Positions 491-2,945 of a stretch of 64,000 bases of DNA are shown one piece after another (the stretch's first letter is position 1; each line of letters begins with the position of its first letter). The notes below the pieces were generated by a model. The model had not been told where the DNA came from, did no database searches, and was given only the letters and a program-made list of their open reading frames with translations. The stretch lies in contig NZ_CANNDN010000001.1 of assembly GCF_947503465.1 (NCBI RefSeq), forward strand, positions 992,001 to 1,056,000. Reading direction: 5' to 3'. Both the position numbers and the translations under genes were made by a program. Source of the DNA: an uncultured Tateyamaria sp. (GTDB lineage Bacteria; Pseudomonadota; Alphaproteobacteria; Rhodobacterales; Rhodobacteraceae).

Positions 491-653
491 GCTCGAATTC
501 TCCGCGTTATGGCGCAAGAAATGGCACATTCCACGTCAGAGGCAAGGGCCCGCCGACTGCCCCGGCGTAAACGCCGCATCCTTGTGCGACTTGCCCAGCA
601 ATTCAACCGCAGGCCTATGCAAATGCTGCATGGCAGCATTGAATTGGTGTGCA

Positions 654-681
654 TTGTGCACCCGCAGCATTGGCTTATATT
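654..681 (+). promoter_or_regulatory. Candidate promoter of the DUF1127/CcsR operon
   Basis: TTGTGC (654-659) and TATATT (676-681) are separated by 16 bp just upstream of the DUF1127 gene. In R. sphaeroides the homologous operon is driven by RpoHI/RpoHII, whose -35 is CTTG-like, so this is only a candidate. A start point near 688 would favour translation initiation at 715 over the ATG at 694. Confidence 0.3.
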
Positions 682-714: not shown

Positions 715-945
715 ATGGCCTATTACAATGATGTAGCACAGCGCAGCGATCTGGTGGAACGTATCCTCGGCTCCGCTGCACGTGTTTTCCAAGCCGCTGC
801 AGAGCGTCACGCGAAACAGCGTATCTTCCGCAGCACCTTTACCGAGCTGAACGCTTTGTCGAACCGCGAACTGGCCGATCTGGGCCTGCACCGGTCCGAA
901 CTCAAGCGCGTGGCCTGGGAATCTGCAAACGGCGAAACCGCCTGA
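715..945 (+). CDS. Small DUF1127 (YjiS-like) protein, CcaF1-like
   Basis: A 76-residue basic protein whose C-terminal half carries the DUF1127 pattern (TELNALSNRELADLGLHRSE). In R. sphaeroides the DUF1127 protein RSP_6037 (CcaF1) is encoded directly in front of the CcsR1-4 sRNAs and is described as an RNA-binding protein involved in sRNA maturation and RNA turnover. The arrangement here is the same: CUCCUCCC hairpins begin 16 bp after the stop codon. The ATG at 715 has GAGG nine bases upstream; ATGs at 694 and 700 are in frame but lack a comparable site. Function is inferred from family and context. Confidence 0.85.
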   Translation: MAYYNDVAQRSDLVERILGSAARVFQAAAERHAKQRIFRSTFTELNALSNRELADLGLHRSELKRVAWESANGETA

Positions 946-960
946 CACGAAACACACGAG

Positions 961-1036
961 ATCAGATGGCCCTCTCCTCCTCCCTGGGGCATCTGAAATT
1001 GGCGGCGGCGCCTTCCTCCTCCCTGGCGTCGCCGCA
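961..1036 (+). ncRNA. CcsR-type 'cuckoo' sRNA, unit 1
   Basis: Two adjacent stem-loops, each exposing a CUCCUCCC loop. Hairpin 1 (962-996) pairs TCAGATG with CATCTGA plus CCC/GGG. Hairpin 2 (1002-1035) pairs GCGGCG with CGCCGC plus CGCC/GGCG around a loop containing TTCCTCCTCCCT. Two hairpins with an anti-Shine-Dalgarno-like loop downstream of a DUF1127 gene is the layout of R. sphaeroides CcsR RNAs (cuckoo RNA family). Exact ends are processing products and cannot be read from sequence. Confidence 0.85.
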
Positions 1037-1052
1037 CCTTTAACACCGCGAT

Positions 1053-1136
1053 ACATCGCTGCACCGGTCCTCCTCCTCCCTGACCAGCGCGATGTTGCAA
1101 GGGCGGCGGCATTCACCTCCTCCCGAATGTCGCCGC
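1053..1136 (+). ncRNA. CcsR-type 'cuckoo' sRNA, unit 2
   Basis: Second copy of the two-hairpin unit. Hairpin 1 (1053-1095) closes with ACATCGC/GCGATGT and presents a loop with three CTC/CCT repeats flanked by GGT/ACC. Hairpin 2 (1103-1136) is almost perfect: GCGGCG, a G.U, then CATTC/GAATG, enclosing ACCTCCTCCC. The stem sequences differ from unit 1 while base pairing and the loop motif are kept, so the structure appears selected. Confidence 0.85.
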
Positions 1137-1160
1137 ACGAATACCGCACCACACCGGTGC

Positions 1161-1250
1161 GTCAGATTGCCTGACACGGTCTTCCTCCTCCCTGACCGCG
1201 GGCATGAAGAAGGCGGCGGTTCCCTCCTCCGGGGGATCGCCGCTTTTTCT
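1161..1250 (+). ncRNA. CcsR-type 'cuckoo' sRNA, unit 3
   Basis: Third unit. Its first hairpin (1168-1204) pairs TGCC/GGCA and CGGTC/GACCG around TTCCTCCTCCCT. A small extra stem GTCAG/CTGAC lies at 1161-1175 and would compete with it. The second hairpin (1212-1243) has the GCGGCG/CGCCGC stem of the other units with a shorter CTCCTCC loop and runs into a T-tract, so it doubles as the transcription terminator of the operon. Confidence 0.83.
1212..1250 (+). terminator. Rho-independent terminator ending the DUF1127/CcsR operon
   Basis: GC-rich stem (GCGGCG paired with CGCCGC, extended by TTCC/GGGA-type pairs) followed by TTTTTCTTT. It coincides with the last CUCCUCCC hairpin, leaving all three sRNA units on one transcript with the DUF1127 gene. 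Confidence 0.85.
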
Positions 1251-1515: not shown

Positions 1516-2064
1516 ATGATCCGCGCATTCCTGCATTCCGGCACCCGCCGCTTTGCCAAGCAATTCGGGTACAACGCCCGGTACCAGCATGACATCATCG
1601 ATACCGACTGGGGCGCCGGGGCCCGGTTGGCATTGTTCCAGGTGATCAGCAATTACGCCGGACCCAGATCCGCGCATCACATCCGCATGGGCGCACTTGT
1701 AGGTTCGGCCGTCGAAGGCGATTGCGGGCCATGCGCGCAACTGACGGTGGACATGGCATTGGCCTACGGCGCACGCGCCGCCGATATCCAGATTGCCCTG
1801 AACGGCGCCCCGGAGGCGGCGGGCGATTTCGGCCTTGGCTACCAATTTGCATGGGCCGCCATTCGCGGCGATGACACGCTGGATGACCTGCGCGCGCGGA
1901 TCGAAGCAGTCCACGGTCCCCGCGCGGTGATCGCGGCGTCGTTCGCGGCCGCCTTTGCGCGCACCTACCCGGTGATCAAGCGTGGCACGGGCCATGGCAA
2001 GCTGTGTCAGCGGCTGGACGTGAACGGCACCTCGATCACGCTGACCCACCCCACAGCCGCATGA
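1516..2064 (+). CDS. AhpD/carboxymuconolactone-decarboxylase-like protein
   Basis: A 182-residue protein with a GDCGPCAQ motif giving C70 and C73, the redox CxxC of the AhpD/CMD superfamily, in an all-helical context. Family members reduce peroxiredoxin partners or act as decarboxylases. ECF41 sigma factor genes are characteristically next to carboxymuconolactone decarboxylase, oxidoreductase or epimerase ('COE') genes, and this gene overlaps such a sigma gene by ATGA. The ATG at 1516 has AAGGAG nine bases upstream; the frame is open further upstream but without signals. The substrate is unknown; a redox role under sigma control is inferred. Confidence 0.8.
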   Translation: MIRAFLHSGTRRFAKQFGYNARYQHDIIDTDWGAGARLALFQVISNYAGPRSAHHIRMGALVGSAVEGDCGPCAQLTVDMALAYGARAADIQIALNGAPEAAGDFGLGYQFAWAAIRGDDTLDDLRARIEAVHGPRAVIAASFAAAFARTYPVIKRGTGHGKLCQRLDVNGTSITLTHPTAA

Positions 2065-2945
2065 CCGCCTGGGTCGATCAGTTCGAAGCACAGCGGCCGA
2101 TGTTGATGGCCCTGTGCTACCGCATGCTTGGCGAACGCGCCGCGGCCGAGGATGCGGTACAGGACACCTGGTTGAAGTGGTCCACAGCAGATCACGCCCG
2201 CATCCAAACACCGGCCGCGTGGCTGCGCACCGCCGCGACACGCGTGGCCATCGACAGCCTGCGCCGCGCCAAGACCCGGCGCGAAACCTATGTCGGCCCC
2301 TGGCTGCCCGAGCCACTGATCGTCGACGACACCACCGCCGAAGACGACTTTGCGCACGCGCAGGACTGCGAACTGGCGCTGCTTTGGATCATGGACACGC
2401 TCCCCACAAGCGAACGCGCCGCTTTTGTGCTGCGCGAGGCGTTTGACGCCTCCTATGACGAAATCGCGCAGACGCTTGGCAAATCGGAAGCCGCCTGCCG
2501 GCAATTGGTCAGTCGTGCCCACCGACGCGTGGCGCAGGCAACGCCCGACCTGTCGCAACCTGCTGGCAAGCGGGCGGCCCAGATCAGCGGCTTCCTGGCC
2601 GCCATCGCCAACAATGATCTGGACGCGGCCAAGACCTATCTGGCACCGGATGCGGTTTCGATCTCGGATGGCGGGGCCAAGGCGCGCGCGGCGCGACGCC
2701 CCCTGGTTGGCCCCGACGACATCATCGCCGTCTCGCATGCTGTCACGCAAAAGCTGGGCACCACATTGACCCCGACCCCGGTCACGGCCAACGGCCATCC
2801 GGCATTGATGCTGATGGAAGGCACGCGTGTCCATGCGCTGGTGTCGGCCGCGTTGAACGCCGCCGGGCAGATCTGCTGGATGTACACGATGCGCAACCCC
2901 GACAAGCTGGCCTTGCCGCGCGGACTTCAAGCCGCGCTGCCCTAG
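2061..2945 (+). CDS. ECF41-family sigma factor with fused SnoaL-like domain
   Basis: A 294-residue SigJ/ECF41-type sigma factor. Region 2 is at about 5-75 and region 4 at about 110-170, with a C-terminal SnoaL/NTF2-like extension (about 180-294) that replaces an anti-sigma factor. The ECF41 signature motifs are visible: WLPEPL in the linker (81-86), a DGG motif in the extension (SDGGAKARAA) and NPDKL near the end (279-283). It overlaps the AhpD-like gene by ATGA, and a consensus ECF41 promoter precedes the pair, so it probably transcribes its own operon. The inducing signal is not known. Confidence 0.95.
   Translation: MTAWVDQFEAQRPMLMALCYRMLGERAAAEDAVQDTWLKWSTADHARIQTPAAWLRTAATRVAIDSLRRAKTRRETYVGPWLPEPLIVDDTTAEDDFAHAQDCELALLWIMDTLPTSERAAFVLREAFDASYDEIAQTLGKSEAACRQLVSRAHRRVAQATPDLSQPAGKRAAQISGFLAAIANNDLDAAKTYLAPDAVSISDGGAKARAARRPLVGPDDIIAVSHAVTQKLGTTLTPTPVTANGHPALMLMEGTRVHALVSAALNAAGQICWMYTMRNPDKLALPRGLQAALP

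Follow-up and report, generated by a model that had tools for sequence, protein, structure and literature searches.

A three-unit CcsR/cuckoo sRNA array in a marine Tateyamaria bacterium and a conserved VtlR/LsrB-like box upstream of its DUF1127 gene

In R. sphaeroides, the DUF1127 gene ccaF1 (RSP_6037) is followed by the small RNAs CcsR1-4 (Rfam RF02791), an arrangement described as the CIN1 locus (PMC10253847). The ccaF1-CcsR operon is published as being driven by RpoHI/RpoHII, for which a promoter with TTG and TAT cores has been described, and its transcript is reported to be processed by RNase E with the DUF1127 protein and subsequently by PNPase. Neither a LysR protein nor a VtlR-like box is mentioned in those parts of the R. 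sphaeroides ccaF1-CcsR accounts that are drawn on here. The related cuckoo family includes the Sinorhizobium alpha-r14 RNA NfeR1 (RF02344), which in S. meliloti silences ntrB and two transporter mRNAs through its anti-Shine-Dalgarno (anti-SD) loops, and the nfeR1 promoter is bound and activated by LsrB at a TGCA-N6-GCAT site (PMC10746234).

The core consensus of LsrB is given elsewhere as GCAT-N3-TG-N3-T (PMC8844928). In Brucella, VtlR recognizes the motif CAATGCAGCCATGCA and acts as a positive regulator of the sRNA AbcR2 and of three DUF1127 genes (PMC12595884); the trxB-vtlR neighbourhood has also been published (PMC7486931), and LsrB is described as unique to Rhizobiales in a paper from 2025. 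We found no publication linking the CcsR/CcaF1 operon with VtlR or LsrB, and the primary CcsR, CcaF1 and cuckoo papers may mention the box; one article (PMC12501420) includes CcaF1 and a single LsrB item, the latter in its reference list. The literature basis further includes portions of PMC8625941, PMC3927594, PMC11975290, PMC10673084, PMC8307010 and PMC7866481.

The locus analysed here, located in a window (the whole stretch of DNA under study) of 64,000 nucleotides from a marine Tateyamaria bacterium, is a CcsR/cuckoo array, a kind of stress sRNA array that is already known. Six hairpins with CUCCUCC-type loops, arranged in three pairs, span positions 962-1243 directly 3' of a short DUF1127 gene (Table 1). 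The locus resembles ccaF1-CcsR1-4 in the DUF1127 gene, in the two-hairpin units with CCUCCUCCC loops and in the likely terminator at the end, but it contains three units rather than four. Like NfeR1, it combines the same loop motif in several hairpins of variable stem with an LsrB-type site upstream; unlike NfeR1, which is a single sRNA of three hairpins that is also repressed by NtrC, the RNAs here lie behind a DUF1127 gene.

Table 1 Features of the DUF1127-CcsR locus (positions of the window)
Feature	Position	Strand	Remarks
TGCA-N6-GCAT, form of the nfeR1 LsrB site	618..631	+	exact match; overlaps the VtlR-like box
VtlR/LsrB-like box CAATGCTGCCATGCA	627..641	-	14/15 identical to the Brucella VtlR motif
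Likely core promoter	654..681	+	TTGTGC (654-659), 16-nt spacer, TATATT (676-681); inferred from a 19-locus alignment
Second TGCA-N6-GCAT, within TTGTGCACCCGCAGCAT	657..670	+	exact match; overlaps the -35 element
DUF1127 protein gene, CcaF1-like	715..945	+	PF06568, E 1.9e-9; 76 aa from this start
Hairpin 1 (unit 1)	962..996	+	loop motif CCUCCUCCC at 976-984
Hairpin 2 (unit 1)	1002..1035	+	loop motif CCUCCUCCC at 1015-1023
Hairpin 3 (unit 2)	1053..1095	+	loop motif CCUCCUCCC at 1072-1080; lower stem ACAUCGC/GCGAUGU
Hairpin 4 (unit 2)	1103..1136	+	10-nt loop with CCUCCUCCC
Linker hairpin GCACC/GGUGC, junction of units 2 and 3	1146..1160	+	lacks the loop motif; in 10/10 three-unit relatives
GTCAG/CTGAC stem, rival of the lower stem of hairpin 5	1161..1175	+	in 1/10 three-unit relatives; not conserved
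Hairpin 5 (unit 3)	1168..1204	+	loop motif CCUCCUCCC at 1184-1192; lower stem UGCC/GGCA
Hairpin 6 (unit 3), probably the terminator	1213..1250	+	stem 1213-1243 followed by TTTTTCT; this species has a shortened anti-SD loop

The 311-nt array region folds at -148.1 kcal/mol, compared to -107.1 +/- 4.7 for shuffled sequences (z -8.7), and none of 100 shuffles folded as well. The double motif CCTCCTCC-N22..52-CCTCCTCC has five matches in the 4.1-Mb genome, all within the array locus; the backward-pattern control of this search carries no information because the motif is identical when read backwards. Six anti-SD loops had been claimed from the sequence alone. The six hairpins stand, and five of them carry the full CCUCCUCCC motif, but hairpin 6 has CCTCCTCC followed by G, and its loop is shortened, with five bases left unpaired in the minimum-energy structure; CCTCCTCCCTG is retained by the nine aligned relatives. 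The same hairpin is likely the terminator, as had been proposed, judging from its G+C-rich stem and the T-run TTTTTCTTTG directly 3' of it, but a simple terminator scan did not list it.

A lax Rfam search was required because at gathering thresholds the sole match in the window is a tRNA. In this search, unit 1 matches CcsR1 (RF02791) better than any other Rfam family, with 52.5 bits (E 6.9e-12); the same model matches units 2 and 3 with 28.4 and 28.0 bits, all three scores lying below its gathering score of 65.3 bits, which is a curator's threshold rather than a biological feature. The related ar14 model (RF02344) matches the array with 46.0 and 33.0 bits, likewise under the gathering score. 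The assignment to a three-unit array, first made in the sequence-only reading, thus agrees with the model matches to every unit, each sub-gathering, and with the DUF1127 gene upstream as in R. sphaeroides.

The search with the CcsR model across Rhodobacterales, which the same reading had suggested, shows a broad distribution of the family. A CcsR1 match at E<=0.01 is present in 372 of the 390 sampled genomes of the order, representing 135 of 139 genera, and is missing from the other 18. Only 12 of the matching genomes exceed the gathering score, so default annotation with RF02791 misses most arrays in the order. Among 14 control genomes, 12 had matches at E up to 10 and one, Thermus composti, at E<=0.01 with a score below the cut-off, and single weak matches therefore need care.

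For comparison of the gene and its surroundings, we collected 102 loci with a DUF1127 relative, which is found in all 20 Tateyamaria genomes, and retained 84 of these. The 18 copies dropped comprise 14 named duplicates of Tateyamaria genomes, two near-copies (L047 and L048) of locus L046, and two further DUF1127 matches from one genome (L029 and L030). The 84 loci are related to each other, with many from Ruegeria and 20 from Tateyamaria, so that the counts given below are not independent.

The region upstream of the DUF1127 gene contains a box close to the published VtlR motif and two dyads of the nfeR1 type (Table 1). The plus-strand letters of the box are TGCATGGCAGCATTG, and compared to the LsrB core consensus, the box is one base off (AG for TG). 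In the alignment of 19 Tateyamaria upstream regions, the conserved block reads TATGCAA[T/A]TGCTGCAT[A/G]GC[A/G]GCATTG, its start being CATGCAA in one row and CCATGCAA in some. The block is followed by ATTGTGCA-N3-GCAGCAT and then by a TAT-type -10 element, which a single row (L025) lacks. In the TTG/TAT core at 654/676, an RpoH-type and an RpoD-type promoter look alike, and a simple sigma-70 scan listed no promoter here.

The box is conserved in many genera. With up to three mismatches, 78 of the 84 loci have it at an unchanged offset (six lack it there), and in 65 of these 78 it is overlapped by TGCA-N6-GCAT; TTGTGCA-N3-GCAGC is present in 67 of the box-bearing loci. Anywhere upstream, the box is found at this stringency in 80/84 loci, compared to 1/84 mononucleotide shuffles and 0/80 downstream stretches (in four loci, the downstream stretch was too short). 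Of the 30 top CcsR1 loci in the order, 26 have a DUF1127 match and 25 of these 26 have a box with up to three mismatches; this set partly overlaps the 84 loci and comes without a shuffle control. The other DUF1127 matches of this genome offer a weak test, in which no clear box emerged (four mismatches at best, five mismatches, and no match).

The box pattern CAATGCNGCNATGCA is present at the DUF1127 locus in 20/20 genomes of the genus, with one to three matches per genome, and its backward version in 0/20. Across the order, the pattern occurs in 303 of the 390 genomes and the backward control in about three, with matches counted anywhere in the genome. Within the genus, 13 matches lie off the DUF1127 locus; all 10 that were inspected overlap an ORF of at least 45 codons, although not every one of these ORFs need be a gene. 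In two Tateyamaria genomes, a box off the DUF1127 locus (L165 and L167, at 1501) is identical to the published VtlR motif, with similar surroundings in both (TTTTTGCATGGCTGCATTGCGAAAA), and may mark another target.

We traced a candidate for the cognate regulator through trxB, which was found in 53 of 58 other alphaproteobacterial genomes. Among the 30 trxB loci examined for flanking LysR proteins, 15 have one that is similar to a LysR protein of this genome. For 14 of these 15, the best match is the product of G000:C1:812525-813457, with 37-51% identity and 200-299 bits, compared to 125-145 bits for the second-best LysR protein of this genome; the remaining one (L225) shows a distant similarity, with 24% and 95 bits. 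The DNA-binding domain of the protein is 63-87% identical to those of the 14, versus 39-47% for three other LysR proteins of this genome. In a tree of 47 proteins, it groups with the 14 at a support of 94/96, just under the mark for firm support.

With reserve, we regard this LysR protein as a candidate VtlR/LsrB orthologue, the reference proteins having been set by synteny with trxB and not by a named VtlR or LsrB sequence. A protein of this type is encoded in all 390 sampled genomes of the order, with one match per genome at E<=1e-70. The protein is a LysR regulator, as are VtlR of Brucella and Agrobacterium and LsrB of Sinorhizobium, and similar boxes precede DUF1127 genes in Brucella or the genes of AbcR1/2 and NfeR1; in contrast to the published neighbourhood, a search of the trxB flanks of this genome did not find the regulator gene there. 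Inasmuch as trxB-flanking proteins can stand in for the named VtlR and LsrB sequences, the results speak against LsrB being unique to Rhizobiales. Another LysR gene of this genome, at C2:162321-162786 (L252; HTH at 162321-162497, minus strand), lies near a weak DUF1127 match (162733-162786, plus strand) in divergent orientation, possibly forming a local pair of a regulator and a DUF1127 gene.

It appears probable that the DUF1127 gene and the three CcsR units constitute one operon, whose processed RNAs would silence ribosome-binding sites, under a VtlR/LsrB-like LysR protein that would bind and activate an RpoH-like core promoter. Stress, or a redox or nutrient signal, would be received by an RpoH-type core promoter together with VtlR/LsrB on the dyads at 618-641 and 657-670. 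The single transcript would comprise the CcaF1-like DUF1127 mRNA and three two-hairpin sRNA units, between which, by analogy with R. sphaeroides, RNase E with the DUF1127 protein and then PNPase would cut. Once freed, the two-hairpin RNAs would silence mRNAs by base-pairing at GGAGG-type ribosome-binding sites, as is reported for NfeR1; the action on many ribosome-binding sites that had been predicted from the loops fits the behaviour of NfeR1. In the accounts of the VtlR/LsrB regulons of Rhizobiales considered here, the sRNAs and the DUF1127 genes are listed as targets apart from each other, whereas here they would belong to one Rhodobacterales operon; our proposal is that a regulator with separate control of DUF1127 genes and of anti-SD sRNAs in Rhizobiales drives both here from one promoter. 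We propose that VtlR/LsrB and an RpoH-type core promoter jointly drive DUF1127-CcsR transcription across Rhodobacterales.

The principal alternative is an ordinary CcsR operon under RpoHI/RpoHII alone, in which the dyads would bind another regulator or extend the RpoH promoter. This is the form of control described in the R. sphaeroides literature, and the TTG and TAT cores of RpoHI/RpoHII promoters are present at 654 and 676. However, the box at 627-641 is upstream of the -35 element, is nearly identical to the VtlR motif and has been kept across many genera, and a matching regulator is present in all 390 sampled genomes; we consider this alternative rather unlikely.

Two things are added to what is known, namely, a conserved box of the VtlR/LsrB type and a candidate regulator present throughout the order sample. 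In the published accounts considered here, control of CcsR arrays in Rhodobacterales has been described via RpoH factors and in one species. Together, the box and the orthologue would join the literature on CcaF1-CcsR in phototrophs with that on VtlR/LsrB in symbionts and pathogens, would correct the view that LsrB is confined to Rhizobiales, and would connect a widespread anti-SD sRNA system to a redox or nutrient signal in a way that is directly open to testing.

The arrays themselves vary greatly in size. Within 900 nt downstream of DUF1127, the 84 loci contain 498 core motifs (CTCCTCC or CCTCCTC), of which 490 are placed in the loop of a hairpin if the motif is kept from pairing; for 388, the fold is more stable than in at least 95 of 100 sequences with shuffled flanks. 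Individual loci have between 0 and 16 core motifs, with four or six in 18 of the 20 Tateyamaria loci (one of the remaining has five, and one has none). These counts rest on the 7-base cores, with near matches merged, and are lower bounds because loci with low counts (L049, L100 and L046, with one, one and two) each hold further hairpins with degenerate loops of the CCTCCC type.

Very long arrays, with units that are identical or nearly so, are found in L086, L095 and L105. The largest, in Mesobaculum littorinae (L086), has 16 core motifs in eight units; that of Antarcticimicrobium sediminis (L105) has 15, and L089, L095 and L102 have 13 each. The best unit pairs inside L086 and inside L095 are identical, which suggests that tandem duplication of units in long arrays is recent. 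At the other extreme, a Tateyamaria locus (L028, genome G006) has the DUF1127 gene and a VtlR-like box with two mismatches but no CTCCTCC motif downstream. Because the box precedes a DUF1127 gene that lacks an array, its presence goes with the gene and not with the array; the primary link of the regulator may be with the DUF1127 gene, and the RNAs may come under it through the shared transcript.

Identical units and the spread from 0 to 16 core motifs per locus would also be expected if the array were a decoy or sponge for a protein or RNA that recognizes anti-SD sequences, with the number of units setting the dose. Known CcsR/cuckoo relatives, however, are described as controlling specific mRNAs (flhR, ntrB and two transporter mRNAs), and we deem such a role highly improbable. 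Returning to the operon under a VtlR/LsrB-like regulator, we favour, with somewhat less assurance than the operon model itself, a history in which Rhodobacterales has a VtlR/LsrB regulator with the DUF1127-cuckoo operon as its old core target, and in which the number of sRNAs varies by tandem duplication of units. The VtlR-DUF1127-sRNA circuit would then predate the split of the two orders.

The stems of the array hairpins vary in their letters and still pair. The MAFFT-based consensus fold of units 2 and 3 dropped hairpins 3 and 5, the lower stems of which were out of register, and an arm-swap test was therefore chosen. The native 3' arms pair better than swapped ones in 51/51 odd and 50/50 even hairpins of Tateyamaria (in the test within single genus positions, 15, 15, 15 and 19 of 19); outside the genus, this is true of 395/397 hairpins. 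The pair counts agree. In unit 1, five pairs are changed on both sides, and the covariation score was reached by 0/500 shuffles, although one of the five covariation measures (further pair types) was reached by 17/500; in the even hairpins of units 2 and 3, four pairs have both sides changed, with the covariation score matched by 0/500 shuffles and the number of pairs changed on both sides by 7/500. The sequences being related, these shuffle counts are not probabilities.

The compensating stem changes noticed at the outset are thus borne out, and the absence of covariation among relatives, named in the sequence-only reading as evidence that would count against it, was not what the arm swap and the pair counts revealed. 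The least probable reading of all, that the hairpins are a 3' stabilizer or multi-step terminator of the DUF1127 mRNA and not trans-acting sRNAs, would suit their position in the 3' UTR, the stable fold and the likely terminator at the end, but is opposed by the strong conservation of the loop while the stem letters change yet stay paired, and by the published action in trans of the R. sphaeroides and S. meliloti relatives.

Between the units, additional hairpins are common. Among the 129 inter-unit spacers counted over all loci, namely, those with 58-90 nt between motif starts, 99 have a hairpin of at least 5 bp, compared to 14.1 expected from shuffles. In the fold of the array region of this genome, the spacer between units 1 and 2 forms no linker hairpin. 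At the junction of units 2 and 3, the competing GTCAG/CTGAC stem pointed out earlier does exist and does compete with the lower stem of hairpin 5, but the conserved element at this junction is the adjacent GCACC/GGTGC. The arms of the competing stem are at 1161-1165 (GTCAG) and 1171-1175 (CTGAC), and the stem is part of the minimum-energy structure when a slightly longer region is folded. Its pairing probability is 0.02 in 946-1256, 0.39-0.42 in 1100-1256, 0.51-0.55 in 1140-1256 and 0.83-0.89 in 1140-1215; because it varies with the flank supplied, the two stems seem to be finely balanced.

Elsewhere in the window (1516-2945), the gene of a small CGPC-motif protein directly precedes that of a sigma-70-family (ECF-like) factor. 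The small protein has no Pfam match at E 0.001, and the factor shows a sub-threshold SnoaL-like match at its C-terminus. The pair presumably resembles ECF41 with its carboxymuconolactone-decarboxylase-like partner.
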